From the IMG/VR virus record IMGVR_UViG_3300018468_000002, positions 1 through 23,162 of that record: DNA of 23,162 bases. One strand, given 5' to 3'. Below are positions 4,131-21,100 of the stretch, one piece after another. How positions within the stretch are numbered: the stretch's first letter is position 1; every line of letters starts with the position of its first letter. The position numbers and the translations under genes were made by a program. Source of the DNA: a virus. The notes below the pieces were generated by a model. The model was given only the letters and a program-made list of their open reading frames with translations, did no database searches and had not been told where the DNA came from.

Positions 4131-4144
4131 CTCGTCAGTTGAAA

Positions 4145-4164
4145 CTCAAAATATTTTAAGTGAG
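4145..4164. repeat. AT-rich palindrome, copy 1 (divergent)
   Basis: On the minus strand the core reads CTTAAAATATTTTGAG, matching 14 of 16 positions of the core at copies 2 and 3. It begins 7 nt after the stop of the small tail-tip gene and ends 14 nt before the start of the tail hub gene. The centre AAAATATTTT is a perfect palindrome; the outer arms CTCA/TGAG add a second pairing. Confidence 0.6.
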
Positions 4165-4171
4165 CTATACC

Positions 4172-4552
4172 TCATGGCCTCTTAATGAGTTTTATCGTTA
4201 TCGTGTGCAAACTCTGGCCCGCCGCTGGTTCAGCCACGCACGTTAAACCATTCTTATCGAACTGCACGCCCGCGAGTGTCCCATCGTTTAAGGGCGTGAA
4301 AGAGAAGCTTATAAGTGAACCTAAATTCGGGTTGTAGCGCGCGCTCTGTGCAAGACTGCGGAAAAGATCGCGCTCCGTTGTCAGATAGTGCTGATACTTA
4401 ACATACCATCGACGTATGGGCGTATCCGCAAGCGATAGAAAATCTTTCCCACCATCCTGATAATCACCACCCTCAATGCCCGGCCACTCTGGTTCTAATT
4501 CGTAATATTCGGTGGGCGGATAGGTCGTAAGACTCGGATAGACGAGAGCCAT
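4172..4552 (-). CDS. Small tail-tip / minor tail protein (gpM-like by position)
   Basis: The 126-residue product lies between tape measure and tail hub, where lambda-like phages carry a small tail-tip protein such as gpM. The pattern RRWYVKYQHYLTTERDLFRSL followed by LGSLISFSFTPLNDGT resembles the W-x-L-x-Y...E...F...f-x-f-x-P...G layout common in such proteins, but I cannot assign a named family. Its ATG shares one base with the TGA stop of the tape measure gene (TGATG), a strong sign of translational coupling. Function is inferred mainly from order. Confidence 0.6.
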   Translation of the reverse strand: MALVYPSLTTYPPTEYYELEPEWPGIEGGDYQDGGKDFLSLADTPIRRWYVKYQHYLTTERDLFRSLAQSARYNPNLGSLISFSFTPLNDGTLAGVQFDKNGLTCVAEPAAGQSLHTITIKLIKRP

Positions 4553-6966
4553 CAGACTTTACCTCCATCTGTGGTGACAACAAGGCGTGTATTGCCGTTG
4601 ATCAACCAGTCCTTAACAAAATGCTGCGCAACAATTCCGTCTTTAAGTCCAAGTTCCACGCGATAGGTCACGACGGGCTGGCTGCCGACTCTATCAGCAA
4701 CTATTTCTGAAGGCGTGCCGGATGATGTGGAACTGCTGCCTGCCGGACCGGTACCACCTCCTGCTCCTGCGCCTGTCGTAGCGTTTGAATCGCGCGGCGC
4801 GATAGCCCGGCCCGCAACGGCGGTGCCGAATGCGATGCTTGCCATCAGAGCCGCAGCCGCGAACCACTGCGAAGCCGGGCCATAAATGGCTGCGCCCCAA
4901 GGAGTGAGCGCGGCGATGCCATATGCTGTGAAGAGTATGGCCTGTGCCGCAGCTTGCTCCGCTACGCCGGCGAGAACAGAAGCCACGAGCTTTTGTATCG
5001 CGTGGTCACCAAGGTTCGCACCTGACGCCCAAGCGCCGACCATCTGACCTATTCCAGAAGCTAAACTATGAAAGGCATCTAATCCCGACTGTTTAAGCTC
5101 ACCAAAGGCTTTCTTTAGCGGGTCGAATTTCTTCGGCATATCCGGCGGTAACATGCCGCCCATCAACCGATCCATCTCCTTATTAAAATTTTTCAGAGCC
5201 TCTGATTGGTCATCAAGAATCGGAAGTTCCGGCATCTTCAAAGTCGGAACAGTGAAATTCTCCAAAGCCGCAGTAAGATTTAATTTTTCTATCCCCTTTC
5301 CTGTTTTCTCTATATCAAGCAGCAACGCATTCATCTGTAAAAGCTTTGTATTAACACCTGCAAATGACACGCCCGCTTTATCTGCTGCCTCTATCTGCTC
5401 TAGCAGGATGTCATAGTTGCTCTTTTCGCTCCCCGTTAACCTCTTAACCGCCTCATCCTGATTCGTTATAAACTTGGTAAACTCTTCCGTAGCGCTCTGC
5501 GTATCCTTCAGCTTGTTAACTTCCACCACCCACTGATCTGCTAATTTCGCAGCCGCAAGAATTTGGTCTCGTGTACGGTCTGAGAGTCCTTTGAACTTAG
5601 GGTCTGCTAGAGCCGCCTCTGCTCCTGCAAGGTAAGTCTGGTGCTGAAGTGAAGCCAATTCACCCTGCGCCCGTTTTGCCTGTTCAACCAAGTTCTTGAA
5701 CATGTCGAGGCCATAATCTTCCGGTCCTTCAACCTTCTCTTCTTTAGGTGCACGAGTTGTGCGTGTGCGCCCTGCCCCACCCTTTGTGGTTTTAGCCGCG
5801 CGCATTACCGCCTTCCACGTCTCATTTGACATCTCAGCGTTTGGATACGCGCCGCCCTTGATGTCTTCCGGCGCAGGCAGTAGTCCGCCTAATGCTTTTC
5901 CTGCTTGGCCTGCAAGTCCGGCAGCACTTGCTTTAGCTGCCGTGTCGTAAATTACGCCAAGAGTGTTTTTTAGATTTTCAGCAAAGGCTAGTATTGGCGC
6001 AGATAGTAATAGATTGACTAAATCAACGACTAAGCGAAGCGTCTCAACTACAGCCTGTAGTAGTCCGATGATGATCTTCAACGCCGGAGCAAGTGTTTCT
6101 AGCAAATCACGGCCTAGAGCGAGTGCGGATTGCCCGGTCTGTTTAAGTGAGTCTCTAAATTCATCGGCGGCTTTAGCTGTCTCCGTAGAAATTAGAGTCC
6201 CCATCTGACGATACTTTTCAATAGCGCCGTCTAGATCGCCGTGCATCTCTTTGAGGACGCCCAAAACATCTTTACCGGAGCGTCCGAAGAGTTGCATGGC
6301 AATGGCGGTCTGCTCTTCACTTTCAGGCATCTTTGAAAGGACTTCAAATACTTGACGTAAGGCTTTCTCATTATCTGAGGTGTCAACGTTTAGACTCTTG
6401 AAAAGCGCGGACATCTGCTTTTGCCCTTCGCGCGCCTTCTCCATATTTTTATCAAAAATTCCGAGTGAAGCTGAGAGATTTGTAATGCTGCTGCCAGAGG
6501 TTTCGGCAGCATTTTTAAGGGCGCTTAGAGTTTCGACTGATAGATTGACTTTGGTGTGGAGATCGTAGAGTTGTGCGGCGGCTTGATTGAGCTTTTCAGT
6601 AAAGTAGAAGACTGCCGAAGCTGCTCCTATCCATATTGATGCTGTGCCAGCAAGCCCAGATACAACGCTACCAAATGATGAAGCCTCTTGTGATGCTGTG
6701 GTTAGTGCTGATGATGTATTTTTGATTGACTGTGACGCGCCTAAAGCCACTCTCTCAGCGCTTGCTATAGCCTTCTCTGATTCGGCTATAAGAACATCTG
6801 TGGCACTTCTTAGGTCGGCAGTATATTTACCGTAAGAAGAGCTTAGCTCTGCCTGAAGCCGCGCTTCTCCTGCTTTTATAGAAGAATTCGCGTTTGCAAA
6901 GTCTGCGCCTACCAGACTTGAGTCGCCGCGAATTCTAAAAATTACATCTACTTCGTTTGCCGCCAT
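4552..6966 (-). CDS. Tail tape measure protein
   Basis: The 804-residue protein follows the tail assembly chaperones, the conserved position of the tape measure. It has an alanine- and serine-rich, probably coiled-coil N-terminal part (residues 25-95), a hydrophobic stretch at about 101-121, the motif AMQLFGRSGKDVLGVL (223-238) typical of tape measure proteins, a second hydrophobic region (287-330), a basic linker near 395-412, and a long hydrophobic region (about 660-720). Those stretches fit the family's role of setting tail length and helping DNA pass the cell membrane. At roughly 0.15 nm per residue, the length would predict a tail of about 120 nm. No good ribosome binding site precedes the ATG, which lies 20 nt after the chaperone stop. 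No lysozyme or peptidase motif was seen. Confidence 0.9.
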   Translation of the reverse strand: MAANEVDVIFRIRGDSSLVGADFANANSSIKAGEARLQAELSSSYGKYTADLRSATDVLIAESEKAIASAERVALGASQSIKNTSSALTTASQEASSFGSVVSGLAGTASIWIGAASAVFYFTEKLNQAAAQLYDLHTKVNLSVETLSALKNAAETSGSSITNLSASLGIFDKNMEKAREGQKQMSALFKSLNVDTSDNEKALRQVFEVLSKMPESEEQTAIAMQLFGRSGKDVLGVLKEMHGDLDGAIEKYRQMGTLISTETAKAADEFRDSLKQTGQSALALGRDLLETLAPALKIIIGLLQAVVETLRLVVDLVNLLLSAPILAFAENLKNTLGVIYDTAAKASAAGLAGQAGKALGGLLPAPEDIKGGAYPNAEMSNETWKAVMRAAKTTKGGAGRTRTTRAPKEEKVEGPEDYGLDMFKNLVEQAKRAQGELASLQHQTYLAGAEAALADPKFKGLSDRTRDQILAAAKLADQWVVEVNKLKDTQSATEEFTKFITNQDEAVKRLTGSEKSNYDILLEQIEAADKAGVSFAGVNTKLLQMNALLLDIEKTGKGIEKLNLTAALENFTVPTLKMPELPILDDQSEALKNFNKEMDRLMGGMLPPDMPKKFDPLKKAFGELKQSGLDAFHSLASGIGQMVGAWASGANLGDHAIQKLVASVLAGVAEQAAAQAILFTAYGIAALTPWGAAIYGPASQWFAAAALMASIAFGTAVAGRAIAPRDSNATTGAGAGGGTGPAGSSSTSSGTPSEIVADRVGSQPVVTYRVELGLKDGIVAQHFVKDWLINGNTRLVVTTDGGKV

Positions 6967-6986
6967 AAAATAAAACGGCGGCTGAT

Positions 6987-7232
6987 CTACAAGACGCTTT
7001 TAACGCCAAGAACAGCCGCAAATAAATTCGTTCGAGCCTCGTCCCTCTTCTGCTCTATTTCTTCCTCTTTAATCCAGAGAATCCACGCCGCCGCGCTATC
7101 AAAATCATAACCAATTGCATCATCACAAAGCTCTAGGCGACGGCTTGGTGTCGTACCAAACGCCCTCGCAGTAATAGCCAGACTGAGAAGGTGCAAGCCA
7201 TCCTCCGCTATCACGAAAGGAGTGGAGCGCAC
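6987..7232 (-). CDS. Tail assembly chaperone, downstream (T-like) part, probably made by recoding
   Basis: This frame overlaps the end of the 192-aa chaperone gene by 110 nt. Its conserved-looking part (FGTTPSRRLELCDDAIGYDFDSAAAWIL) has the 'P-S-x-x-L-x-L...F/Y-D-x-A' pattern of the T portion of G-T tail chaperones. The frame is open from 7238, just after an in-frame TGA at 7241-7239, to a stop at 6987. It is +1 (equivalently -2) relative to the upstream gene, so a lambda-type -1 shift cannot join them. A GTG at 7232, with GGAGAG about 10 nt upstream, could also start it independently. The alternatives are a recoded 237-aa G-T fusion if the shift is at 7197-7194, or a separate 81-aa protein. 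The fusion is favoured by family precedent. Confidence 0.65.
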   Translation of the reverse strand: MRSTPFVIAEDGLHLLSLAITARAFGTTPSRRLELCDDAIGYDFDSAAAWILWIKEEEIEQKRDEARTNLFAAVLGVKSVL

Positions 7233-7701
7233 CGACGCTCATCTCTCCATTTTCAGTTCTGACCGGAATATCTGGACAGCCATCCAACTGCCATTGAAGA
7301 GCAGCTTTAACTACTTCAGGGAAAGATAAGAAAAACTCTGCATAATCCAACTCATCATCGGCGAGCAGTCTTCCTTTACGCATTTCTTCTGTTGAGAATC
7401 TTGGTTCATCCATCATCGAACAGAAGGCAATGGCTTGAAATCGTAAATAACTTTCCAACTCTTCCGGTGTTAGATCGCTTTTCTTTTTCTCTGTGCTTTT
7501 GCCTTGCGCGGCAGCAAACATAGCTGTCGACAAATACTGAGGAAGCTTTCCTGCTTGTGCCCAATCAATTAGATGGAGGCGGTGCGCTCTACCTTCAAAG
7601 CCTTCAAAATAAACGGGCACAACTTGAGTTTGAGCTTCGCGCTCTGCTCTTTTTTGAGCGGCTTTCTCTTTCCACTTTTTAGCTAAATCTGATGCGCTCA
7701 T
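7123..7701 (-). CDS. Tail assembly chaperone (G-like)
   Basis: The 192-residue protein sits between tail tube and tape measure. It begins with a charged helix (residues 5-25, KKWKEKAAQKRAERE), followed by a predominantly helical body (about 45-145) and a tail that overlaps the T-like frame. In siphophages the protein here binds the tape measure and recruits tail tube subunits, and its last residues are usually replaced in some copies by a frameshifted extension. The final 23 residues would be absent from a fusion if the shift occurs at codon 169. The ribosome binding site is weak; GAGGA lies too far upstream at about 17 nt. The role rests on position and on the overlapping T-like frame rather than on a sequence motif. 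Confidence 0.7.
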   Translation of the reverse strand: MSASDLAKKWKEKAAQKRAEREAQTQVVPVYFEGFEGRAHRLHLIDWAQAGKLPQYLSTAMFAAAQGKSTEKKKSDLTPEELESYLRFQAIAFCSMMDEPRFSTEEMRKGRLLADDELDYAEFFLSFPEVVKAALQWQLDGCPDIPVRTENGEMSVGALHSFRDSGGWLAPSQSGYYCEGVWYDTKPSPRAL

Positions 7702-7727
7702 AAACTTTCAAATCCTCGCTCTCTGTG

Positions 7728-8333
7728 CTAGCTCTGAATATTCATCGCGGCCAATTTGTCTCCCCCTGCCCGTGAATCAACACTTTGAGCCTTGAACTGG
7801 AAGGGGCTACTCGCCAGCTTCTGTGCGTCGATGTCGAACTCAACGCCCGCCATGTTAAGAGCTTTGTAAAGTTGCACGCTGATATACTTACCAGGGGCTT
7901 CTGGCTGCTGCCAGACCAGGACCACCGAGAATGTTGGCGGTACGCCACCCTTGCCGCCCATCTGGATGAGCGTTGAGCCTGTTAAGGAGACGGTTGTCGA
8001 ACCGGCCATCATGGCAGCGAGCTTGGCAGCGTTTTGAAGCTCCATCCACGCACCCGAAATCATCACCTCTTCCTGCTGTAAGAGCTGGCGGAAGGAGTTT
8101 GGACTCTCATTCGATTTCCCTTCAAAGAAGGTCTCCTTATAGGCCCACTTGGCACCAGCTTCGAGCTTACCCATAAATATCGCGCTAGGGTTCGTCGTCG
8201 CGTCGAGCGAGCCATCTGAATGCAATACAACGGCTGCGCCCGCACTCGGCACTGAGGCCTTGATCCAAACCTCAGCTGGTCCTTGTGGCACGTCTACGCC
8301 CGTGTAGGGCCGGGATGTTCCGGTTGTCGGCAT
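7728..8333 (-). CDS. Major tail (tube) protein
   Basis: The 201-residue protein is followed by the chaperone pair and tape measure, the usual place of the tail tube subunit. It has the beta-rich character and length of siphovirus tube proteins: PAEVWIKASVPSAGA near the N-terminus, a variable loop region, then FSVVLVWQQPEAPGKYISVQL and a C-terminal strand FQFKAQSVDSR. The start ATG has a strong ribosome binding site, AAAGGAG seven to eight nt upstream, in a 42-nt gap, as expected for an abundantly made protein. No added Ig-like domain is seen. Function is by position and general appearance. Confidence 0.8.
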   Translation of the reverse strand: MPTTGTSRPYTGVDVPQGPAEVWIKASVPSAGAAVVLHSDGSLDATTNPSAIFMGKLEAGAKWAYKETFFEGKSNESPNSFRQLLQQEEVMISGAWMELQNAAKLAAMMAGSTTVSLTGSTLIQMGGKGGVPPTFSVVLVWQQPEAPGKYISVQLYKALNMAGVEFDIDAQKLASSPFQFKAQSVDSRAGGDKLAAMNIQS

Positions 8334-8375
8334 AAAATCTCTCCTTTAATCGATGGCTTTTATTGACACCAAACC

Positions 8376-8858
8376 TTATTGCTCGTCCTGTTCTTGCTCG
8401 CCCTCTGTGTCGATTGTGACGCTTACTCCGACACCAGTTCTGCCATGCGCGGCCTGTAGCTTTGGAAGCGTGCGATCCCTTTCGGCAATGTGGGTAATAA
8501 GTTCGACCTGAGTCTCCGGCTCTGTAACTTCTGCTACTTGCTTCTCGTCGATGATGCGCAGGCAAGTTTTGCGTGCTTCATCCGGCAAAAGTGCGATGTT
8601 CAGGTCGGGCCGGTAATTGCGCTCAACCGCAGGGTCGAAGAACAAGCGGCCTCGTCTGGCCTCCAAAGTTATGGGGTCGACGATGTCGCCTTCGATTCGC
8701 GCGATGGCTTCATATTTTGCAATCCCTTCGCGCACGCCGAACTCACGAATCAGCCCCTCGAAAGTGACGGCCATGCGAGCGCCCGTCTCAGGGTGCACAC
8801 CCGGATGAGGCTTGCCATCATTATCAAAACCGGGCTGCCCTTTTTTATCTATACTCAT
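8376..8858 (-). CDS. Unknown protein between tail terminator and tail tube
   Basis: I place the start at the ATG at 8858 (160 aa, beginning MSIDKKGQPGF) because GGAGG lies 6 nt upstream. An upstream in-frame ATG at 8897 would add 13 residues but overlap the previous gene by 23 nt and has no comparable site. The protein is soluble-looking and acidic at the C-terminus (TEGEQEQDEQ), with a motif-like segment GARMAVTFEGLIREFGVREG (residues 25-44). I do not recognise the family. Its place between the probable tail terminator and the tail tube suggests a virion or assembly role, for instance at the tail neck, but nothing in the sequence shows this. Confidence 0.7.
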   Translation of the reverse strand: MSIDKKGQPGFDNDGKPHPGVHPETGARMAVTFEGLIREFGVREGIAKYEAIARIEGDIVDPITLEARRGRLFFDPAVERNYRPDLNIALLPDEARKTCLRIIDEKQVAEVTEPETQVELITHIAERDRTLPKLQAAHGRTGVGVSVTIDTEGEQEQDEQ

Positions 8859-8864
8859 TATCAA

Positions 8865-8869
8865 CCTCC
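8865..8869 (-). promoter_or_regulatory. Ribosome binding site deciding the 8858 start
   Basis: GGAGG on the minus strand lies 6 nt before the ATG at 8858. It supports the internal start over the upstream ATG at 8897. Confidence 0.75.
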
Positions 8870-8874
8870 GCGTT

Positions 8875-9414
8875 TTATCTGTTTGTTGACTCGCCATAAT
8901 TGGCGACCACTTTCAAGCCTTTGACTGCGCGACCGAACATCTTGTTCTCTTTGAACCAGACATAACGTCCCTGCCGCAGTTGCACGAAAGCCAGCGAGCG
9001 GTTCGTTATGTCTTTGAAAAGATCATCCCTCGCGGCAGACCAGAGGACATTCAGAACTGCGCGCTTGTAGCGAATGACATCAAGAGTTATCTTCGCCAAA
9101 TCCTCGTTGGGCGGCGTGCAGATCGTAATGTCGAGCCGATTTTCTTCGTTAAGCGTTGATCTGTCCTTTGTCTCGACCGAGTCGTCCTGGTCCGGCTGCA
9201 CGATTATTAAAGGGAACGCCGGGTCAGGTTTTTCTGCCTGTAGATACTCCTCAAAATCCGGCAGAAGATAAGCCGATGGATTGCCGCCGTAGTAGGTCGC
9301 AAGATCCACGGATTGAAGAGCCAACTCCTGTGGAATGTCGCGCTTTAAGATTCTGAGCACGTTGTTCCAGAAAGGCTCAATTCCCTGATATTTGAGTCGC
9401 CTTTGGTAGCTCAT
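8875..9414 (-). CDS. Probable tail terminator / tail completion protein
   Basis: The 179-residue protein starts with an ATGA overlap on the stop of the gpG-like gene. An N-terminal helix (WNNVLRILKRDIPQEL) is followed by FPLIIVQPDQDDSVET, then ENRLDITICT and a helix with DVIRYKRAVLNVL. This order of strand, long loop, strand, helix is seen in tail terminator proteins that cap the tail tube before it joins the head. It lies two genes before the tail tube, a common location. No exact family is recognised; a neck or head-closure role is the main alternative. Confidence 0.6.
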   Translation of the reverse strand: MSYQRRLKYQGIEPFWNNVLRILKRDIPQELALQSVDLATYYGGNPSAYLLPDFEEYLQAEKPDPAFPLIIVQPDQDDSVETKDRSTLNEENRLDITICTPPNEDLAKITLDVIRYKRAVLNVLWSAARDDLFKDITNRSLAFVQLRQGRYVWFKENKMFGRAVKGLKVVANYGESTNR

Positions 9415-9941
9415 TCGAGTTCAAAGATCGATGTTTGAATAAAGCCTCCGAGAAAGCCTAGCTCTGTGACATACTCTCGCGCGTAAGTGACGATTTTGTC
9501 CGCCATGCGATTGATCACTTCTGGATTAGGCTGCTTCGGTATGGGCGCTCGCTCCGGCCTCTTCCCCGAAGGTTCCATATGAAAACCTCCATATGGTACG
9601 CTTGAGCCGAAGATTAACTCGTCGGGCGAAATCTCCGAGATCGAATCGGGCGCACCTTCCTGACCCAGACTGAGATAAAGTCTGTCAGTGAAGCGAAGTG
9701 TCAAAAGATATGCGACGCTTCCAAGAGCTTTCAGCTTTCTTTCAAGTGTGCTCTCAGCGTCTTCGGGCCAAGAGCCTTCTCCGCGAGAACCGAACCAGTC
9801 GCGCTCCATGTAGAGGAACTCTTTATGGAGGGCTTCACCGAGACCTGCACCGAAGTCTGAGAAGGGGTTCTTCGAAGCGCGCATCACCTGCTGAAGCGCC
9901 GCCCCTAGCCTTTCATCTTCGACCGTTACTCTAAAGAGCAT
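9411..9941 (-). CDS. Virion morphogenesis / tail completion protein (Mu gpG-like, HK97 gp10-like)
   Basis: The 176-residue product matches the pattern of phage virion morphogenesis proteins: an N-terminal helix, then residues 42-75 with DWFGSRGEGSWPEDAEST followed by a lysine-rich helix. Next come a 'tG-x-L'-like region (TLRFTDRLYLSLG) and IFGSSVPYGGFHMEPSG (110-126), ending in the basic PERAPIPKQP where relatives have an 'iPaRPF' motif. These proteins act in the neck or tail completion step. The ATG directly follows the TAA of the preceding gene, and GAGAGAG upstream is a plausible ribosome binding site. Confidence 0.8.
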   Translation of the reverse strand: MLFRVTVEDERLGAALQQVMRASKNPFSDFGAGLGEALHKEFLYMERDWFGSRGEGSWPEDAESTLERKLKALGSVAYLLTLRFTDRLYLSLGQEGAPDSISEISPDELIFGSSVPYGGFHMEPSGKRPERAPIPKQPNPEVINRMADKIVTYAREYVTELGFLGGFIQTSIFELE

Positions 9942-10298
9942 TTAAGTTCTCTCTCTCAACACATCGTCGAGCATTCTCGTTGAACCTTTAATCACCCACT
10001 GTCGAGGTTCAATTAGTGGCGGCTGCACCCCATCATCCGGTATGTGCAGAAGTAAACCGCCGAAAGACATCCTTCTAGCCTTATTAAGAAGATCGGCTGT
10101 AACAATCGATTGCTCAGCGATGAAGACTGTATAATCAACAGCATTGCCTTGTGATACATACCAGCCCGATTGCACTTCAAGGATCGGCTGTTGATTCTCG
10201 CCCTTATTGTATTCAAAGAACTGGAGCGTGCCTGCCGGTCCAAGTAGGGCACGCTGCGCGTCGAACTTTATCGCCAATACGTCTGATTGTTTGATCAC
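9942..10298 (-). CDS. Probable head closure / neck protein
   Basis: The 118-residue protein lies between the head-tail connector and the gpG-like protein, the standard slot for the head closure (stopper) protein. The start is GTG, overlapping the TGA stop of the connector gene in a GTGA arrangement, so translation is coupled. The sequence has beta-strand segments (GTLQFFEYN, DYTVFIAEQS, PRQWVIKGST) consistent with a small beta-barrel stopper, but no diagnostic motif is visible. Confidence 0.55.
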   Translation of the reverse strand: MIKQSDVLAIKFDAQRALLGPAGTLQFFEYNKGENQQPILEVQSGWYVSQGNAVDYTVFIAEQSIVTADLLNKARRMSFGGLLLHIPDDGVQPPLIEPRQWVIKGSTRMLDDVLRERT

Positions 10299-10963: not shown

Positions 10964-10972
10964 CGGTCCGCC

Positions 10973-11659: not shown

Positions 11660-11699
11660 TTTGCTTTCTCCTCTTCCGGCTTGAATTCCAAGCGCCTTT

Positions 11700-11723
11700 G
11701 TCTCTTAAAATGTTTTAAGAGAC
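11700..11723. repeat. AT-rich palindrome, copy 2
   Basis: Two perfect 11-bp arms, GTCTCTTAAAA and TTTTAAGAGAC, flank a two-base centre (TG on the plus strand). It lies 10 nt after the stop of the probable decoration gene and 40 nt before the next start. The 20-bp core CTCTTAAAATGTTTTAAGAG is identical, in inverted orientation, to copy 3. Confidence 0.85.
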
Positions 11724-11735
11724 GCGACTCGCGTC
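11721..11735. repeat. GC-rich palindrome abutting copy 2
   Basis: GACGCGA and TCGCGTC form perfect 7-bp arms around one central base. It overlaps both the end of the AT-rich palindrome and the first bases of the TGA stop of the 11734 gene. On the minus-strand RNA it could form a 5-bp stem just before the AT-rich hairpin. Confidence 0.6.
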
Positions 11736-12309: not shown

Positions 12310-12316
12310 CACTGCT

Positions 12317-12323
12317 CTCCTTT
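12317..12323 (-). promoter_or_regulatory. Ribosome binding site of the probable decoration gene
   Basis: AAAGGAG on the minus strand ends 7 nt before the ATG at 12309, favouring that ATG over the adjacent GTG at 12312. Confidence 0.7.
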
Positions 12324-12333
12324 AACTTTCAAA

Positions 12334-12364
12334 CATGAGAGGTCTAAAACTTTGACCCCTCATG
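12334..12364. repeat. Inverted repeat between capsid and decoration genes
   Basis: CATGAGAGGTC (12334-12344) and GACCCCTCATG (12354-12364) are complementary except for one position, with a 9-base AT-rich loop. It begins about 26 nt after the stop of the capsid gene. No strong T-run follows on the minus strand, so it looks more like an mRNA-stabilising or processing hairpin, or a weak terminator, than a strong terminator. Confidence 0.55.
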
Positions 12365-12390
12365 ATCTGAGCAACAATCAACCTCTGGCG

Positions 12391-13725: not shown

Positions 13726-13735
13726 AAATTTTCTC

Positions 13736-14902
13736 CTATTGAACCTGCGAGCTAATGGTTCGGGTTCTCAGTCGCTGGAAATCTGCACGCAAAGACTCGT
13801 CATCCACGCTCTTCATATGCGCATCGGAAGTTCCGACCGTCACCTCTTTGTTATCCGTTCCCGCGGGGATCAGATTGAGCAGGCCCTTGCGGACATCTCT
13901 CAAAGAGGATTCGACCGTTTTGATCTTGTCGTGCGCACGTCGGAGCTTTTCCTGATTGGCCGTGCTGATCGCGCGGCCTGCTTTGACGCGGATTTCTTGA
14001 ATTGATTGGGCACGCTCTGACCAGTCTGAAACCAGGCTGGCGAGCGCGGTAACTTTCAAAGCGTACCCTTCAACAGCGGCAAGCACCGTTTCGGAGTGGT
14101 CGGCGAATTTTAGCCCGTCAGGCAGGCTCGTGAACTTCCTGAGAGACTTCGCCGCGTCTCCCTCGACCCCCTCGTCATCATCTGCGAAGACGGAGGCCCA
14201 GATTCTTTTCTTAAACTCATCAAATAAGAGATTGAACTGTTTCTCTAAATCGTAACCATCGGGCAGGCGGCTCTCTTCCCAGTATTCTTCCATGCACTGG
14301 AGCCGCCAGACGGCAGATGTGAAAATGTCAGTTAAAAAATAGAGTCCTTCAGTGCGCTCTTCGAATATATCTTCAAAGAGCGCCTTGATGGTTTTCCGCC
14401 CTTCAGCCTTTTGTGTAGTCAATTCGCTGAAGGCTTTGAGCGAGACGACGCGATTCTGATATTCAGCCGGGCAGGGCGTGAGGCTTCCTTCAGCGATGAT
14501 CCAACGCTTGATCTCGCCATCTTTAGTTTTGCGCACTGTATGAGCAGGCGCGCCAGAGGAGAAGCCGAGCTTGCCCGCCACAACCAACTCATGCACTTTG
14601 GCCTCGTACTTATCCGCGAGGTCGAGTACCACTTCGGCGAAGATGCCGATATCATCCTTCGTCGTCTTCAAAGACTTGAAGATGTGATCGGTCAACTCCT
14701 GCGGCACATCGGGAAGCGGCAGCATGTGATGAAACAGGCAATCAACGCCGTTTCCATCGTGCGCGCCGAAGTAGGTGTTCTTGGTAAAATGTTCGCCGTC
14801 GAGGTCCTTTGAGTCGAAGCGCACGAGATAGCTACCGACGCGGCCACTATCGTCCAGCGCCTTGACTGCTTCTCCGATGTAGATCAACTCGTCGCGTTCC
14901 AT
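13736..14902 (-). CDS. Prohead protease (HK97/S78-like) with long C-terminal extension
   Basis: I choose the ATG at 14902 (388 aa); a TTG at 14917 would fall inside the terminator T-run. The protease domain covers residues about 1-165. It contains LFHHMLPLPD (H58/H59), KLGFSSGAPAHTV (S115/S116) and IIAEGSLTPCPAE (E138), corresponding to the His, Ser and Glu catalytic positions of the HK97 prohead protease family. It should cut the capsid protein delta domain during maturation. Residues about 165-388 form an unusual helical, charged extension, including a likely coiled coil (AHDKIKTVESSLRDVRKGLL); it may act as a scaffold or capsid-binding part. The upstream hairpin suggests that its expression is separated from the small-gene block. 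Confidence 0.9.
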   Translation of the reverse strand: MERDELIYIGEAVKALDDSGRVGSYLVRFDSKDLDGEHFTKNTYFGAHDGNGVDCLFHHMLPLPDVPQELTDHIFKSLKTTKDDIGIFAEVVLDLADKYEAKVHELVVAGKLGFSSGAPAHTVRKTKDGEIKRWIIAEGSLTPCPAEYQNRVVSLKAFSELTTQKAEGRKTIKALFEDIFEERTEGLYFLTDIFTSAVWRLQCMEEYWEESRLPDGYDLEKQFNLLFDEFKKRIWASVFADDDEGVEGDAAKSLRKFTSLPDGLKFADHSETVLAAVEGYALKVTALASLVSDWSERAQSIQEIRVKAGRAISTANQEKLRRAHDKIKTVESSLRDVRKGLLNLIPAGTDNKEVTVGTSDAHMKSVDDESLRADFQRLRTRTISSQVQ

Positions 14903-14915
14903 GTCCACGCCAGGC

Positions 14916-14973
14916 AAAAGAAAAAAGCCGCCAATCTCAGCGACCCAGAAGGGCTGCTCTAAATTGGCGGCTT
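14916..14973 (-). terminator. Rho-independent terminator before the protease gene
   Basis: On the minus strand AAGCCGCCAAT (14973-14963) pairs perfectly with ATTGGCGGCTT (14935-14925) and runs straight into a T-tract (14926-14921, then C and four more T). An inner stem AGC/GCT plus CCC/GGG around TTCT extends the hairpin. The arrangement is a textbook intrinsic terminator for minus-strand transcription. It ends only about 14 nt before the protease ATG, so some transcription must read through, or initiate within, this short stretch. Confidence 0.8.
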
Positions 14974-15020
14974 CAGAAGAAACCTTGATGCGCGAGCATC
15001 AATGATCGCGCTTTGTCGGA
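14974..15020. other. Gap before terminator, no feature seen
   Basis: Between the stop of the small zinc-binding gene and the terminator stem I see no ORF or repeat. It contains no convincing promoter for the protease gene. Confidence 0.4.
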
Positions 15021-15203
15021 CTATCCTATATCAGAATTATTTTCAGATTGCAACAACTTTTTATTCGGACGATGTTCTTCCGGGTTCAAACAGATGTAGT
15101 AATCGCACTTGCGACACAAGCCATAGAGGCCGTCGTGAGGACAAACGGTAGATACATATTCATCGTCGAAAGCATCGCCACATTTTTCGCAAGTAACAAT
15201 CAT
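15021..15203 (-). CDS. Small cysteine-rich, probable zinc-binding protein
   Basis: The 60-residue product has C5-x2-C8, C21 with H23, C30-x2-C33 and C38, with H44 further on. This is enough to form one or two zinc sites (zinc ribbon or zinc finger type). The rest is acidic and unstructured. The start has no clear ribosome binding site, but the gene lies 10 nt after the preceding stop, so coupling is likely. Function is unknown; DNA, RNA or protein binding are all possible. It is the last gene of the six-gene block before the terminator. Confidence 0.65.
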   Translation of the reverse strand: MIVTCEKCGDAFDDEYVSTVCPHDGLYGLCRKCDYYICLNPEEHRPNKKLLQSENNSDIG

Positions 15204-15213
15204 ATAGATTTAA

Positions 15214-15402
15214 CTATTCTTCTAAGCATTTAATCTTACCTAGAATCTTCGCAGGTTGAATCGGGATTACCATTTTACCATTCACAATTCGCGCGGCCTC
15301 TAAGTCTAACTGCGGCTCTTCAACAAGCAGAATCTGACCGGAACGAATATCGTCTCTAACGATGACGGGGAAACCGAAAATCTTTTCTCTTATTTCAGCC
15401 AT
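15214..15402 (-). CDS. Small unknown phage protein
   Basis: The 62-residue protein starts with an 8-nt overlap with the end of the upstream gene (its ATG lies in the last codons of that gene). The sequence KIFGFPVIVRDDIRSGQILLVEEP resembles the 'F-G-x-P-V-x-v-x-d-d' beginning of small proteins often found next to phage head genes. No function is known to me. It looks like a compact beta-rich domain with no membrane segment. Confidence 0.6.
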   Translation of the reverse strand: MAEIREKIFGFPVIVRDDIRSGQILLVEEPQLDLEAARIVNGKMVIPIQPAKILGKIKCLEE

Positions 15403-15739
15403 TGCTAATCATCCCATTCCATCCAGTGTCATCAAGAAATTCCGGCCAATCAATCTCGTCGCTTTCAGCTTGAGTGGGTTGCGCTGGCAATAACTCCAGG
15501 AAGAAGAACCGATCCGCGACGGCGCGAATGCGCGTGAGCCTGAATTGTCCGAGCAGAGTGGTGCGCCCCTCATCATCAGTGTCAGTTAAGAAGAACCTGT
15601 CACCATCCTGATCGTATCCGAGCACGCCTTCGAAGTAAGACATCTCATCGCCGCTCGGAATCGCAATGAGCACGCGCGTGCCCACAAGCTGCATGACGCG
15701 CGCCTTAAATTGGTTGATCTGCTCGCCTGCGGTTTTCAT
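15395..15739 (-). CDS. Unknown small protein of the portal-protease gene block
   Basis: The 114-residue product is not recognised. Residues 20-85 look like a small beta barrel (RVLIAIPSG, YFEGVLGYDQDGDRFFL, LGQFRLTRIRAV), perhaps SH3- or Sm-like; the C-terminal 25 residues are acidic and probably flexible (QPTQAESDEIDWPEF). The ATG lies 35 nt inside the upstream gene, with GCAGG 5 nt before it, so the overlap appears real. The beta-barrel idea is inference from alternating hydrophobic residues. Confidence 0.65.
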   Translation of the reverse strand: MKTAGEQINQFKARVMQLVGTRVLIAIPSGDEMSYFEGVLGYDQDGDRFFLTDTDDEGRTTLLGQFRLTRIRAVADRFFFLELLPAQPTQAESDEIDWPEFLDDTGWNGMISNG

Positions 15740-16001
15740 TCAACCTGCCTTCGATCTCTCGCTCGATACGCTCGACGATCTCCCTGAGCGTGGAGTTGTT
15801 CGCCTGCTTCAGATAGATGTCTATCAAAGCTTTCATGGGCCGCACATTCGCGTGCAGTTGCTTATCATGATAGCACTTCCAGACCAGAAGGCCATTGACA
15901 ATTATAGCTGCGTCGCGCGGGCATTCGGCGCAAGCGAGAGCTTTGGACGGAACGTCGCGCGTTGAAATTGAGAGTTCAAGATTTACTTCATTGGCGCTCA
16001 C
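15705..16001 (-). CDS. Unknown protein with possible zinc knuckle
   Basis: The 98-residue product starts at GTG, overlapping the TGA of the upstream gene (GTGA), so it is translationally coupled. C24-x2-C27, C43 and H45 could bind a metal ion (ACAECPRDAAIIV then LVWKCYHDKQLH). The C-terminal half is a charged helix (STLREIVERIEREIEGRLNE) that could form a coiled coil. I do not recognise the family. Of the neighbouring small genes, the 15021 product is also cysteine-rich. Confidence 0.6.
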   Translation of the reverse strand: MSANEVNLELSISTRDVPSKALACAECPRDAAIIVNGLLVWKCYHDKQLHANVRPMKALIDIYLKQANNSTLREIVERIEREIEGRLNENRRRADQPI

Positions 16002-16297
16002 AAAGTTTCGTCCTCTTGTTTTGCCTCTGCCTTATGATCGCCGTTTCTTTGCTCTTCGACGCCGACGATCATCTCGTACATCTGCCGCGTGATCTGCATC
16101 GCAAACTTGATGTTGTAGGAGGGGTTCTCTCGCGTCATAGCCGCCAGGTACACGACCGGATGAACATCAATCACAGCGTTCGCGCCTCGCAAATGCGCTT
16201 GTGGCGGCTGCTCGCCCGGAGCAACGATATTGGTCGCCGGACGCTCTACCCATTCGGCGTAGATAAAGAAGTAGCTTTTTTGTAGCGGGTTGCTCAT
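15998..16297 (-). CDS. Unknown small protein of the portal-protease gene block
   Basis: The 99-residue protein is not recognised. The first part has NPLQKSYFFIYAEWVERPA and a middle segment GANAVIDVHPVVYLAAM, suggesting a small alpha/beta fold; the last 25 residues are charged and probably disordered. The ribosome binding site is weak (GTGAG 4-5 nt upstream of ATG). An 11-codon ORF upstream ends in an ATGA overlap with this start and could feed ribosomes to it. Confidence 0.6.
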   Translation of the reverse strand: MSNPLQKSYFFIYAEWVERPATNIVAPGEQPPQAHLRGANAVIDVHPVVYLAAMTRENPSYNIKFAMQITRQMYEMIVGVEEQRNGDHKAEAKQEDETL

Positions 16298-16329
16298 TTT
16301 CTCACACCAATCAAATCGGCCAAGCCCAT
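16294..16329 (-). CDS. Possible leader peptide (11 codons) coupled to the 16297 gene
   Basis: An ATG at 16329 opens MGLADLIGVRK and ends in a TGA overlapping the ATG of the next gene. The same frame is open back to a TAA inside AT-rich palindrome copy 3 and looks protein-like (SDKGSDGQ before the ATG). It might be a coupling peptide or the remnant of a protein C-terminus. No good ribosome binding site is present (AAAGG is 13-14 nt away). Confidence 0.25.
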   Translation of the reverse strand: MGLADLIGVRK

Positions 16330-16357
16330 CTGACCATCACTGCCTTTATCGGACTTG

Positions 16358-16381
16358 CTCTCTTAAAACATTTTAAGAGAG
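16358..16381. repeat. AT-rich palindrome, copy 3
   Basis: Arms CTCTCTTAAAA and TTTTAAGAGAG are perfectly complementary around a two-base centre (CA on plus). It begins 4 nt after the stop of the 130-aa gene and lies 60 nt before the next start. Its 20-bp core is the exact reverse complement of the plus-strand core of copy 2. Confidence 0.85.
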
Positions 16382-16385
16382 ACGA

Positions 16386-16778
16386 TTATTTTGTATTCGC
16401 TGGCGGTGGTGGCGTTGGTCTCACTTTATCCCTGCCCGTCGCCATACGAGCCTTGACAGCAGCCATTTGCGCTTCCAGGCGTTTCAACTCCTCTTCGTCC
16501 CCGTATCTCTCAGGATGCAGGAATTTGTCAGCCTCCCGCCTTCCGATGTCCGTTGCGCGCCCCTTGTTGCCGCCCTTCTCCATATAGATGCCGACGACAT
16601 ATGGAGTCTCGTTTTCGGCTTCCTTGAACTCTTCGCTTTCAATCAACTCAAATACACTCTTCTTCTTCTTTGGGTCATTCGAAGGCGATACATAATGCAC
16701 GAACTTTTGAAACTCCTTCGGTTCAGTGCGTGTGATTATCAATTCGCCCTTGTTAGGCACTAGAATCTGAATGTTCAT
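16386..16778 (-). CDS. Unknown protein, first gene after the portal
   Basis: The 130-residue product is not recognised. Residues 1-70 look globular (MNIQILVPNKGELIITRTEP, then PYVVGIYMEKGG); residues 90-112 form a charged helix (DEEELKRLEAQMAAVKARM); and the C-terminus is proline-rich (RPTPPPPANTK). The ATG has a strong site (GAAGGAG, 6 nt upstream) that overlaps the portal stop region, so it is probably well expressed with the portal. Confidence 0.65.
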   Translation of the reverse strand: MNIQILVPNKGELIITRTEPKEFQKFVHYVSPSNDPKKKKSVFELIESEEFKEAENETPYVVGIYMEKGGNKGRATDIGRREADKFLHPERYGDEEELKRLEAQMAAVKARMATGRDKVRPTPPPPANTK

Positions 16779-16788
16779 TTATTCTCCT

Positions 16789-18243
16789 TCACTTCTCTGT
16801 TTGGTCTTGAACCTTTTTCTTCTGAGCTTCTTTGGCTGGAACTACTTTGGTCTCCGCGCTCGGATCAGGCATTTCCGTGACGTGTGCTCCCTGCAACAAC
16901 TCCATGTCGGGTGAAATCAATGAGATTCCGCGCGGGACACAGAAGACATCATCGGCCTCTATATTGCTTAGATCAGACGATCCTTTGTCGGTCGCGGCGC
17001 GCGCCTCCCCACGCATCCATACGCCAGAGGTAAAAAGAAATCCCGCACGCTTGGCCGTATCGTCCTTGTTCTCCTGAAGCGCGTTGACATCTGAGGTGTC
17101 ATGGCCGACGTGTCGGCTGGGAGGCTCATGATAGTCACGCTCCAGGACCTGCACCGTCAGTTCTTCACCGATGTCAGTCCAGAGAGGCTTGACGACATTA
17201 TCGTAAGATTGCGTCGCCGCCTCTTTGAAATTGTTATATGTCGAGCGGTCCATGCCAGCACCAAAGGGCACGACCGCCGGGTGAATTCCGGTGACGGCGC
17301 AGAGACGCTCTTCGGGAATACGCCTCAGATCGCGCAGCGCCATCTTGTCCGGGTCGAAGGCGAGGAGTTTTATGTCGACAGCGTCGGTGAGAACCAGTGG
17401 CTCGCCGCGGCGATCTCCCTGAGTTTTAAGTAGCGCCTGCTCTTTGATTCTAAGAGCATCAATCTCCGTGACGTTGCCGGCATCCGATAATTTAGGAATG
17501 ATGACCCAGGGTGGAACGCCTGCATTTTTGACGAGCGCGGCTGTATAGTTCGCCGCCTCGCTATCTGAGAAGATTTCGCGCAAGACCGATTTCATGTTCG
17601 CCAGGCCGACGCGCGGATTCAGGGGATCAATCCCGTTGCGAAGGTGAAAAACATCATCGACTCTCAGGTGATAGGTATTGCCATCCACCAGATAAACATA
17701 GTGTGTGATGAAAGCCGATGGATTACTCCTATCCCAGCCCGGAGCCATCATGAAGTGCGGGATATACCAGTATTGCACCACGTCGCCGAAGATATTTCTG
17801 AGCTTCACCAGATAAGCATTGCCGTCAATGAGCCACGACAAAGCGACTGCCTTCCACATCGTTGCGCCGGAATAGAAAGGATTCGGTCGCCCGATTCGCT
17901 GCTGTAGGTCGTGGCCGGGCACGATCTTCGCGGATTTCTTGTCCTGACCTTCGGTTACTTCTCTGACGACTACGGGAGCCTGCGCTATAGCCGTGCCGAG
18001 CCAGCGTGCCAGCGCAATCACGAGCGAGGAGTTCGTCAACTGTCCAACAGCCGCGCCGTAATCTATGTTCGTGCCTGCAAAGGTTGCACCGGTGCTTCCG
18101 ATCCAGCCCGGCATATATGAAAGAGGTGATCCGTAGCCTCCCGCGCCGGATGTTGCGATGCCGTTGTATTGCGAGAGCGTCGGGAACGGCAGCGCTTTGC
18201 GCGCACGCGATTCCTGATAGAGATGATCTGTGATTGAGTTCAT
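16789..18243 (-). CDS. Portal protein (HK97-type)
   Basis: The 484-residue product shows the typical phage portal pattern: residues 127-150 with ATMWKAVALSWLIDGNAYLVK, then GDVVQYWYIP (153-162), DDVFHLRNGIDPLNPRVGL (196-214), AALVKNAGVPPWVII (235-249) and the C-terminal core with RRIPEERLCAVTGIHPAVV (307-325) and NNFKEAATQSYDNVVKPLW (337-355). The portal forms the dodecameric DNA entry ring and docks the large terminase. The ATG shares four bases with the TGA stop of the upstream gene and has GAGGAAG before it. The last 40 residues are charged and proline-containing. Confidence 0.92.
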   Translation of the reverse strand: MNSITDHLYQESRARKALPFPTLSQYNGIATSGAGGYGSPLSYMPGWIGSTGATFAGTNIDYGAAVGQLTNSSLVIALARWLGTAIAQAPVVVREVTEGQDKKSAKIVPGHDLQQRIGRPNPFYSGATMWKAVALSWLIDGNAYLVKLRNIFGDVVQYWYIPHFMMAPGWDRSNPSAFITHYVYLVDGNTYHLRVDDVFHLRNGIDPLNPRVGLANMKSVLREIFSDSEAANYTAALVKNAGVPPWVIIPKLSDAGNVTEIDALRIKEQALLKTQGDRRGEPLVLTDAVDIKLLAFDPDKMALRDLRRIPEERLCAVTGIHPAVVPFGAGMDRSTYNNFKEAATQSYDNVVKPLWTDIGEELTVQVLERDYHEPPSRHVGHDTSDVNALQENKDDTAKRAGFLFTSGVWMRGEARAATDKGSSDLSNIEADDVFCVPRGISLISPDMELLQGAHVTEMPDPSAETKVVPAKEAQKKKVQDQTEK

Positions 18244-18584
18244 GCGCGCTTCCTCAACACTACCTGCTCATATGTGGTCTGAATTTTCGGAACAAACCCT
18301 GCTTCGATAAAGACTGACCTCACCTGCCCTAAAAGCATCAGGAGCTTGACTGTGTTATTAATCGCAATGTCGTCCACGCCATTCGTGTAGAGGAGATTGC
18401 CTTGCGTGTCCGTTAATTGCATGGTCAACTGCCCTGTCTCTTCGTCGGCCTCGATGACATTCCTGACGAGTCTCAACTCGGCGGCCTCGCGCCTGAGAAC
18501 GCGATCAATGAGCGACGGCTCGCGCCGGACGCGAACCAGCACTTCATAATTCTCAAAATCCTTTTCGCCCCGTGCGATTCTCAA
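18240..18584 (-). CDS. Unknown small protein between terminase and portal
   Basis: The 114-residue product appears to start at TTG; no ATG lies near the start, and AAGGG just upstream is only 2-3 nt away. The N-terminus is basic (MRIARGEKDFENYEVLVRVR) and followed by a helix (PSLIDRVLRREAAELRLVRN); the middle has ETGQLTMQLTDTQGNLLYTN. No family is recognised. Small proteins in this slot of related phages are of unknown function. The end overlaps the portal start by 4 nt. Confidence 0.6.
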   Translation of the reverse strand: MRIARGEKDFENYEVLVRVRREPSLIDRVLRREAAELRLVRNVIEADEETGQLTMQLTDTQGNLLYTNGVDDIAINNTVKLLMLLGQVRSVFIEAGFVPKIQTTYEQVVLRKRA

Positions 18585-18588
18585 ACCC

Positions 18589-18855
18589 TTAGCCCGCTTT
18601 CTGATTAGAAAACTGCGTAGGCACTTCCGTTGAAAGAAGAACGGGCTGCAAGGGATTGTTAAAGGTCATCACCATCAAGTAGATGTACCCTTGCTCTACG
18701 ATCTGCCTCTTCTCGCTTTCAGATAGTTCCCATCTCGTCAGGATGATGCCTTCCGCATTCCTCACAGCCGGAAGCGGCTGATACTCTGGTTGGTCTTTCG
18801 CGTAAATAACTTCTGGGTGATCCGCGACTGGAATAACAGGGCTTGTTGGTTTCAT
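18589..18855 (-). CDS. Small phage protein with DQPEYQPLP motif
   Basis: The 88-residue protein carries KDQPEYQPLPAVRNAEGIIL followed by TRWELSESEKRQI and a hydrophobic strand YIYLMVMTF. This pattern recurs in small proteins next to phage packaging genes, as far as I remember; no function is known to me. The start has a clear site (AAGGGAG). It follows the large terminase gene by 11 nt and lies 4 nt before the next gene. Confidence 0.65.
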   Translation of the reverse strand: MKPTSPVIPVADHPEVIYAKDQPEYQPLPAVRNAEGIILTRWELSESEKRQIVEQGYIYLMVMTFNNPLQPVLLSTEVPTQFSNQKAG

Positions 18856-18866
18856 AAGCTTCTCCC

Positions 18867-20291
18867 TTAATAAGCAGTCAACACTCGGCGTTTTGTCATG
18901 ACGCCGTAGCGCAGCATGTCGTACTCATCATCGCCGCCATCTCCGTTCTGATCTGCATTAACTTTCAAAACATCTTCAGGGTCTGATGGGTCATGCACCA
19001 TCCTCTTCATCGCAGCGATGGTCCGCGGGCAGGTCTTGAAAATGTGCAGCCGCGCCTTGATCCCAAGTTCTTTATTGCCGAGCAGTTCTAACAATTCGCG
19101 TGCGCCTGCCACACGATCAAGCTGTGCGTGCACAAGGCTAAAACCGATCTCTTCGCCGGAGGCAGGGGTTTTGGCCTCCTTGTATTGCTGGGCTATAGTC
19201 TTTCCAGAGCTGTCTCCGCGCTTCTGAAAGACATCGTGCCCGGCTAAAACTCGCTTGATTCGGTAGTGGTCAACCTGTGCGCGATCAAGCTGCCTTCTTA
19301 TCGCCATGCAGTGCTGTGGAACGAGCCAGCCGTTCTTGACATGCTCTGCGACTAAATAAATATCCCGTTCATATTGGGCAAAAGCGCCGAAGGCTGTGTT
19401 ATGCGCAAAGCCGTGATCTAACGATCCCCACATGGGCCAGTCTTCTGGAATCTCGAAGGGGTCGCATGTGTGTAGATCATCATCCCATTCTTCAAAGAAG
19501 ATACCCTCCGCTCCGACCCAGAGACCGTCGCGCAGCCTGGGCTTACGAACCCCCGTGAGCGCATTGAGCTTACTCATCGTGCGCTCGCCCTGCTCAGTCA
19601 AATTCCCCTCATCGTCAAATAATGAGGGATTATCTTCATGCCGCGAATAAAAGAGCTTTAGAGCTTCTCGCTTTAGTATCCAATGGTCTTCCACGCCCGG
19701 GTTACAGTCTCCGAAAAGCATAGGCGTCTTTGTTACGGCCCCGCGGCCCGTCGCGCGCGTGCCCAAGATTTCCCAATCCTCCACTTTCAGCTCTTCCGCC
19801 TGGTTTACATAGATGAAATCCCGCTCGCTGGAGAGCATCTTGTTCGGCTTGTCAAGGCCTCCTACCCAGAGCTTCGCGCCGTTGTCGTAGTCATACCACT
19901 CAGGCTTTTCACCGCCGTAAGCCTCTGCCGGCTTCTCTCCCAATTGCGAGCGCAATTCCTGGATGCGCTTATAGGTGACGAGTACACTGCCGGTGATGGA
20001 GACCTGAAGCTTGCGCGCGAGAATGGCCTGTGCTTTCGGCGTCTCGCGCAGTAGGCTGTCAAGGAGCCAGAGTGTCGCCCAGGTCTTGCCCGTTTCAGAT
20101 GGTCCTGAAAGTATCCACTCGGGCCCGCGATAGCTTTGAACTTCCAGGTTAGCGCCACGAAAAACGGGCGGCCTTTTTCCGCCTTCCTCCTCTGCGCGCG
20201 CGCGTCGTCTGCGTTCAAGCTCTGCCGCGGCGCGAAGCTGCAAGGACGCGGGCAGGGTCTTCTCCGTTTGCGATGCGCTCAAGTTCATCAT
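18867..20291 (-). CDS. terL: Terminase large subunit
   Basis: The 474-residue protein has the two-domain terminase layout. Walker A is SGPSETGKT (residues 62-70). A Walker B-like segment DFIYVNQAEEL (158-168) has N-Q where a D-E pair is usual; I recall this VNQAEEL form as typical of this terminase subgroup, so it is probably active. Motif III is FGDCNPG (193-199). The nuclease domain includes SLDHGF (D292), GHDVF (D353) and GDDEYDMLRYGV (D454-D458). It translocates DNA into the prohead and cuts concatemers. The ATG lies 77 nt inside the end of the small subunit gene, out of frame, a long overlap with no good ribosome binding site. Confidence 0.93.
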   Translation of the reverse strand: MMNLSASQTEKTLPASLQLRAAAELERRRRARAEEEGGKRPPVFRGANLEVQSYRGPEWILSGPSETGKTWATLWLLDSLLRETPKAQAILARKLQVSITGSVLVTYKRIQELRSQLGEKPAEAYGGEKPEWYDYDNGAKLWVGGLDKPNKMLSSERDFIYVNQAEELKVEDWEILGTRATGRGAVTKTPMLFGDCNPGVEDHWILKREALKLFYSRHEDNPSLFDDEGNLTEQGERTMSKLNALTGVRKPRLRDGLWVGAEGIFFEEWDDDLHTCDPFEIPEDWPMWGSLDHGFAHNTAFGAFAQYERDIYLVAEHVKNGWLVPQHCMAIRRQLDRAQVDHYRIKRVLAGHDVFQKRGDSSGKTIAQQYKEAKTPASGEEIGFSLVHAQLDRVAGARELLELLGNKELGIKARLHIFKTCPRTIAAMKRMVHDPSDPEDVLKVNADQNGDGGDDEYDMLRYGVMTKRRVLTAY

Positions 20292-20793
20292 CTGTGCAGT
20301 TGGACAAATCCACCTTGAGGCTAGTGCTGCGCTCCTGCCACTCGCCTAACTCTATGGCGGCCTGTTTCTCGTGCTCGCGTAGTTCCTTTAGAAGACTTGT
20401 GTCAACCATGTAGACTTCCACGCGCTCGAAATCCTCACCCTTGCCGATGCCCTTCACGTCTCTAACGATTAGCCCGGTCGCGCCGCCACCCGGATAGTCT
20501 TTATTCTCAACCGCGCGCCGCTCGATCACCTCCGTCATTCTTTCCTGGCGATCTCTCAGGGCCTCAAGGCGGTTCTGTTTGGCTAGAATGCCGCGCGCCA
20601 ACAGGCGAGAGCGCGTCTCTTCAACTATTTCTCTGACCTTGGCCTCGAAGTCTGGATGCGTCTTCCAGCGGTGAAGGGTTGCGCGATTGATCTTTAGTCG
20701 CTCGGCTATCTGCTCATCTGTGAGCGAATCTTCTGCGACGAGCGAGGCGGCCTCTTCGCGCTTTGCGTTCCACTTAAATTCTGGAGACTGCAT
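20215..20793 (-). CDS. terS: Terminase small subunit (phBC6A51-like)
   Basis: The 192-residue protein starts with a helix-turn-helix (residues about 12-46, REEAASLVAEDSLTDEQIAE then LKINRATLHRWKTHPDFE), the DNA-binding part typical of phBC6A51-type small terminases. A long helical middle follows (52-97, including RNA/DNA-binding-like arginines), then a beta segment FERVEVYMVDT and a helix. It should recognise the packaging site and hand DNA to the large subunit. The end overlaps terL by 77 nt. AAGGA lies about 17 nt before the ATG, rather far. Confidence 0.85.
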   Translation of the reverse strand: MQSPEFKWNAKREEAASLVAEDSLTDEQIAERLKINRATLHRWKTHPDFEAKVREIVEETRSRLLARGILAKQNRLEALRDRQERMTEVIERRAVENKDYPGGGATGLIVRDVKGIGKGEDFERVEVYMVDTSLLKELREHEKQAAIELGEWQERSTSLKVDLSNCTDDELERIANGEDPARVLAASRRGRA

Positions 20794-20819
20794 TGAAAAC
20801 CAGTGTTGAATCCTTCAAG

Positions 20820-20837
20820 ACCTAAAATATTTTAGGT
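20820..20837. repeat. AT-rich palindrome, copy 4
   Basis: ACCTAAAATATTTTAGGT is a perfect 18-bp palindrome. It matches 13 of 16 positions of the core at copies 2 and 3. It starts 1 nt after the stop of the zinc-ribbon gene and 26 nt before terS, and is flanked on both sides by TTGAA in direct orientation on the minus strand. Confidence 0.7.
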
Positions 20838-20838
20838 T

Positions 20839-21024: not shown

Positions 21025-21049
21025 CTTCTATTCTTCAGTGAACACCGTC

Positions 21050-21095: not shown

Positions 21096-21100
21096 AAACC

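Follow-up and report, generated by a model that had tools for sequence, protein, structure and literature searches.

Dispersed DNA sites for proteins of the ParB family are already known as such from phage N15 and plasmid RK2 (PMC3235114), and KorB silences genes over long range from its dispersed operators (PMC11790492). The contacts through which ParB and Noc read their sites include those of R173 with guanine 1, Q173 with adenine 1 and R201 with cytosine 6 (PMC7383237). Dispersed phage sites of another kind, the stoperators of mycobacteriophage L5, are 13 bp long, asymmetric and oriented, and the immunity repressor binds them as a monomer (PMC9283540). A December 2025 survey describes ParB-fold proteins as widespread in phages and of unknown role, and the part of it available gives no DNA sites for them (PMC12704722). 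Here we describe four dispersed AT-rich palindromes in a 23,162-base IMG/VR virus contig (the whole of which is referred to as the window), and sequence comparison leads us to conclude with considerable confidence that they are putative loading sites of a ParB/Noc-family protein encoded by the phage itself.

The late region of the window is siphovirus-like and coded leftward, with portal, capsid, terminase and tape measure genes, and all four of the palindromes that a first-pass annotation had described are present in it (Table 1). They are 16–24 bp long and match CYTAAAATRTTTTRRG perfectly on one strand or both; the 16-bp cores are even-centred in all four, and copies 2 and 3 are centred on TG/CA. 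These two copies do lie in opposite orientation as annotated, but the length they share is 22 bp rather than 20 bp, and the TTGAA direct repeats noted at copy 4 occur at that copy only. Copies 1, 2, 3 and 4 begin 7, 10, 4 and 1 nt after a stop codon and end approximately 14, 40, 60 and 26 nt before the next start, respectively, as judged from the window open reading frames, which agrees with the placement 1–10 nt after stops and ahead of starts that had been reported; the idea that they split the region into functional blocks is unsupported as such. Of the four palindromes that rank highest in strength in the window, three come from the dispersed family, compared with about 0.5 per shuffled window at equal strength, and the family in the whole phage has nine members, compared with no more than three in shuffles.

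Table 1. Positions of the palindromic sites in the window and of the ParB-like gene assigned to the same phage.
Feature	Location	Strand or length	Description
Site 1	4145..4164	minus	core CTTAAAATATTTTGAG, minus strand, 4145-4160; one mismatched pair
Site 2	11700..11723	no strand	24-bp palindrome GTCTCTTAAAATGTTTTAAGAGAC; core 11704-11719
Site 3	16358..16381	no strand	24-bp palindrome CTCTCTTAAAACATTTTAAGAGAG; core 16362-16377
Site 4	20820..20837	no strand	perfect 18-bp palindrome ACCTAAAATATTTTAGGT; core 20821-20836
ParB-like gene	contig C244, L129:428-2218	596 aa	recognised by helix-turn-helix/ParB-domain similarity alone

A TerL alignment search of GTDB genomes identified an identical TerL in an Acidobacteria metagenome-assembled genome (MAG; gp4 AA20; L040, G001), two contigs of which, C106 (window 1-17092) and C232 (window 17927-23020), are 99.99-100% identical to the window and represent the same phage. 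Window segments 199-367 and 5791-5925, in the tail-tip and tape-measure genes, are missing from the otherwise 100% identical C106, a case of strain variation. Searched for as a pattern over all 4.7 Mb of the MAG, the exact site occurs three times in C106, four times in C232 (one of these being window copy 4) and twice in C244, and nowhere off these three contigs; the four window sites thus belong to a set of at least nine, and the genome search that had been proposed as a check shows the exact copies to be confined to phage contigs. Contig C244 carries, in order, genes for a ParB-like protein, PRTRC B (E2-like), PRTRC A (JAB-like) and ThiF, the last three with matches that fall under the NCBIfam trusted cut-offs yet are highly significant. 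We assign C244 to the window phage because it shares a bin with the other contigs, because it carries the sites (23 bp around window site 1 are identical to the copy within the C244 ParB-like gene), because it has an 84% identical 186-bp repeat in common with C232, and because a phage with a related TerL, G005, also has the cassette.

The C244 copy at 1047-1062 is intragenic and the remaining copies are located just after genes or within gaps, so the palindromes are not merely gene-end hairpins. This bears on the proposal, also made in the first-pass annotation, that they are RNA hairpins for transcript 3′-end stability, processing or termination. Most copies in the window phage do stand directly after stop codons, and copies 2 and 3 fold with z values of −3.2 and −4.2; however, copy 1 and both C244 copies are not unusually stable (z of −0.9, −0.2 and −0.7), one copy is within a long gene, and there is no Rfam match. 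Nor do the sites resemble intrinsic terminators, as the stem is AT-rich and the transcribed minus strand has no U-run. The sequence is moreover conserved beyond what pairing calls for and follows the recognition helix of the protein, as described below, and taking the weak stems, the intragenic copy and this match together we regard a role as RNA hairpins as very improbable.

Comparison with related phages connects the palindromes to the PRTRC cassette. Among 23 TerL-relative records only one, G005, encodes a PRTRC ThiF, and it is also the only one of these relatives with a dispersed palindrome family of the window type. The G005 family includes CCTAAAACGTTTTAGG, CCTAAAATGTTTTAGG, CCTAAAACAATTTAGG and ACTAAAACGTTTTAGG, and its ACCTAAAATGTTTTAGGT is nearly identical to window site 4. 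Conservation in relatives, on which the annotation's reading had been made to depend, therefore takes the form that relatives without the cassette also lack the family, while G005 has the cassette and its own version of the sites. Searches of viral contigs with the major capsid protein and portal gave distant relatives only, and a search with the 20-bp core gave just two AT-rich phage matches, both unrelated. In another relative (73% TerL identity) a different strong hairpin, CGCCGTCACTTCTGAGAACGATTTCAGAAGTGACGGCG, lies between the portal and protease genes (L013:3778-3815).

A single ThiF query found nothing among viral contigs, and an alignment of five ThiF sequences was needed, with which we identified 78 viral loci with a PRTRC ThiF. 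De novo searching shows that many PRTRC loci hold a private dispersed palindrome family, the sequence of which differs between phages: families of at least two copies are present in 21 of 76 PRTRC loci, compared with none among 59 control loci from TerL relatives and about one among 76 shuffled loci. When only the PRTRC loci with a ParB-like gene are considered, a family is present in 14 of 30, again compared with 0/59 controls (P=2e-8). Burkholderia phage BgVeeders33, which has ThiF and in which no ParB-like gene was detected in the stretch examined, has no dispersed family there.

Further evidence comes from correspondence between the sites and the recognition helix. With few exceptions the palindrome-bearing loci encode ParB-like proteins, and these sort into helix classes that correspond nearly one to one with the sites. 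A class A helix (x-R-S-x-x-S/A-N) pairs with the site TGTTTGCNNGCAAACA, a class B helix (S-D/E-x-A-V-R-N) with CGTTTCNNNNGAAACG, and a class C helix (x-Q-x-x-V-S/A-N, which is Noc-like) with TATTTCCNNGGAAATA; each motif is present in 6/6 contigs of its own class, and matches outside the class do not exceed one per full contig. For six members (L166, L150, L152, L176, L180 and L189) the helix alone had served for the prediction, and the sites were identified only afterwards. The published contacts of residues 173 and 201 agree with the site bases in classes A and C, and G042 carries the exact consensus of the Noc-binding site (NBS), TATTTCCCGGGAAATA. The class of the window phage, with helix S-Q-P-F-V-S and relatives and site form CTTAAAATATTTTAAG, fits by covariation only: its half-sites, CTnnnAAY, shift stepwise with residue 173, from CTTAAAA, CCTAAAA or CTCAAAA with Q, to CTCGAAA with E, CTGCAAA with G and CTGGCA with H, and three members have 17-bp versions of the site. 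A further predicted own site of the C244 protein is CCTAAAATATTTTAGG.

Proteins within a class are often just 30–45% identical and the flanks of the sites are mostly unrelated, so that common descent of the DNA does not account for the sites they have in common. This is relevant also to the suggestion that a small mobile palindrome has spread without function, for which it can be said that arm length varies between copies and that flanking sequences are mostly dissimilar. A spreading element leaves unexplained why the sequence in each phage matches its own ParB helix, why ParB proteins only 33–43% identical retain the same site, and why the host genome has no copies, and we consider it scarcely credible.

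The correspondence can also be read in the other direction. Scanning viral contigs with TATTTCCYRGGAAATA identified six further multi-site contigs besides the known class C phages (one of them, G057, is the same as L186 and was already in the PRTRC set). A ParB-like or PRTRC ThiF gene is present in five of these six contigs with at least two NBS-like sites, compared with 3/34 contigs with a single site (P=5e-4), and all five of the helices that could be read have Q173. As ThiF is missing from three of the six, which do have ParB, the sites are linked to the ParB-like protein and not to PRTRC itself. We note a palindrome family, TGTTCTACGTGGAACA, at 31676, 32105 and 34311 in L266 (MW202898.1), a phage that encodes a ParB protein resembling StrR and has no annotated PRTRC genes; from this family, ParB–site pairing may be wider than the PRTRC phages.

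A different candidate binder is the phage repressor. Contig C232 encodes an XRE/ImmR-type repressor (L126:2665-3213, minus) together with an ImmA-type M78 partner, and two inverted 42-bp promoter-operator copies (90%) are located at L126:1602-1643 and 3136-3177, each with TTGACA and then a spacer of 17 bp that the palindrome AATCTTAAATTTTAAGATT occupies; the arrangement is that of a lambda-like P_L/P_R pair flanking the repressor and M78 cassette. It is likely that this predicted 19-bp operator, in two divergent early promoters, is the repressor's own. That the dispersed sites are stoperators or operators of this repressor, as in L5, would be in keeping with their dispersal, mostly in gaps after stop codons, with the presence of the helix-turn-helix and ImmA pair, and with the half-site CTTAAA that the likely operator shares with them. 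The half-sites of the P_L/P_R operator are however spaced by 1 rather than 4, no dispersed copy lies in these promoters, the dispersed sites are symmetric where those of L5 are asymmetric and oriented (PMC9283540), and G005 has the same type of site but no homologue of the repressor. We have therefore set this repressor aside, and consider the explanation improbable. The first-pass annotation had proposed operator-like sites for a phage repressor; the kind of site appears right, while the protein is very probably of the ParB/Noc family and not a CI- or L5-type repressor.

A replication-initiator-like winged-helix protein (C232 9284-10285) was also set aside, as it has its own iteron-like repeats inside the gene. 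It is 63% identical to a similar protein of G005 (L126:9284-10285 and G005 36351-37298), and the inverted repeats in the gene are of GGACAACTTGTCC type and mark a possible origin.

The identity of the palindromes as binding sites for the ParB-like protein thus follows from their dispersal over the phage genome, their confinement to the phage and the matching of site and recognition helix across phages. They are multi-copy, even 16-bp palindromes, and the same element, if C244 is correctly assigned, encodes both a ParB-type N-terminal domain and a helix-turn-helix. The ParB-like domain (residues 227-372) is modelled by AlphaFold with a pLDDT of about 90, and its nearest PDB structures are Noc-NBS, ParB-CDP and KorB. 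We would expect the two helix-turn-helix domains of a dimer each to read one 8-bp half-site.

Several observations weigh against this interpretation. There is no physical join between C244 and the other two contigs. In about half of the PRTRC loci that encode a ParB-like protein, the 20 kb examined contains no repeated family. A dispersed family is likewise absent from the plasmid PRTRC regions covered here (L147, L267 and L268), and the sites in G044 are weak or single only. Some class members share ancestry (some in class A are close relatives), and the counts are not fully independent. Finally, the catalytic ENxxR motif kept in classes A–C is absent from the class of the window phage, which has GANATH or similar in its place, and this degraded motif makes a CTP-driven sliding clamp, as in canonical ParB, Noc and KorB, doubtful for the window phage.

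As to the role of the system, the protein would dock at 4–10 sites spread through the phage or prophage in the manner of KorB or Noc, probably sliding from them in classes A–C with their ENxxR nucleotide motif, and the phage genes in a lysogen would be silenced, organised, or both. We put forward such a silencing or organising role tentatively, at somewhat less than even likelihood. Site placement is informative in part: across 15 contigs with crude gene calls, 24/73 sites lie between genes compared with 4.3 expected, which bears out the enrichment in gaps that the first-pass annotation had thought worth checking, but copies also occur within genes, many of them inside long ones. One site is often in or near the parB-like gene, which suggests autoregulation.

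The same proteins and sites could alternatively act as centromeres, the palindromes then being partition sites of parS type through which the phage would be maintained stably as a plasmid of low copy number, as has been suggested for the scattered N15 sites. Like parS and NBS these are even palindromes of 16 bp, dispersed centromeres have been reported in N15, RK2 and pMF1 (PMC3235114), PRTRC cassettes are common on plasmids, and integrase was not found in G005 nor noted among the annotated genes of the three window-phage contigs. A ParABS system, however, has its ParA ATPase encoded alongside, and ParA (PF13614) is present in only 2/28 PRTRC contigs, in a search that was positive in 14/14 control genomes; no ParA was noted on the three contigs of the window phage, the genome of which is incomplete. 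A tyrosine integrase is encoded by 20 of the 28. Given the near-universal lack of ParA and the frequency of integrase, we prefer the KorB- or Noc-like role, and think partition unlikely. A broader scheme is possible but doubtful, in which many temperate phages would encode an orphan protein of the ParB/Noc family; this protein would load at palindromes private to each phage and spread over its whole genome, coat or silence the phage DNA and distinguish it from that of the host, and the attached PRTRC cassette for ubiquitin-like conjugation would act on the nucleoprotein or through it.

We found no report in open-licence papers linking PRTRC, or ParA-less phage ParB proteins, to dispersed cognate sites. 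Many unrelated soil and water phages appear to carry their own matched sets of protein and sites, and genome-wide marking or control of this kind by a phage is apparently undescribed. About ten protein–site pairs can be read straight from the genomes, so that predicted DNA targets are at hand for direct tests, both for phage ParB proteins and for the PRTRC cassette, the function of which is obscure. The pairs constitute a natural experiment in the change of specificity of one helix-turn-helix, and offer ready-made orthogonal ParB–site combinations.

Three other features of the window may be mentioned. A near-perfect 30-bp hairpin, GCGCTCTTCGAATATATCTTCAAAGAGCGC, is located at 14354-14383 within gene 13736-14917, which is protease/scaffold-like, close to where the portion conserved among relatives ends. 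The gene at 21434-21850 encodes a CheY-like response-regulator receiver protein, with a weak relative in G005 at about the same place, and 6987-7232 and 7123-7701 overlap upstream of the tape measure, as is typical of a frameshifted tail-assembly chaperone pair.

Among the described systems, the L5 stoperators are similar in being dispersed protein-binding sites, often in short intergenic gaps, but the sites described here are palindromic, symmetric dimer sites and the early promoters carry a different 19-bp palindrome. The N15 centromeres are likewise ParB-family sites dispersed on a phage genome, although the N15 prophage is a linear plasmid and encodes ParA, whereas most of these phages have integrase and lack ParA. 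Chromosomal parS is also a 16-bp even palindrome, the class A and B sites resemble TGTTTCACGTGAAACA, and class A keeps the R173–G1 contact; these phages are nevertheless mostly without ParA, and their sites are phage-wide rather than clustered near an origin. The OB operators of plasmid RK2 are similar in that a ParB-family protein acts at operators dispersed over a mobile element, but the site is different, KorB has a ParA partner (IncC) and KorA, and silencing by the phage proteins is predicted only. The Noc/NBS system of Bacillus subtilis is not located on phage genomes, and the window class differs from it in its helix, its site and its lack of ENxxR. It nonetheless shares with the phages a genome-scattered 16-bp palindrome and a ParB-family protein without ParA, and the class C phages have Q173, R201 and sites, TATTTCCYRGGAAATA, that are identical or nearly identical to the NBS consensus (PMC7383237).

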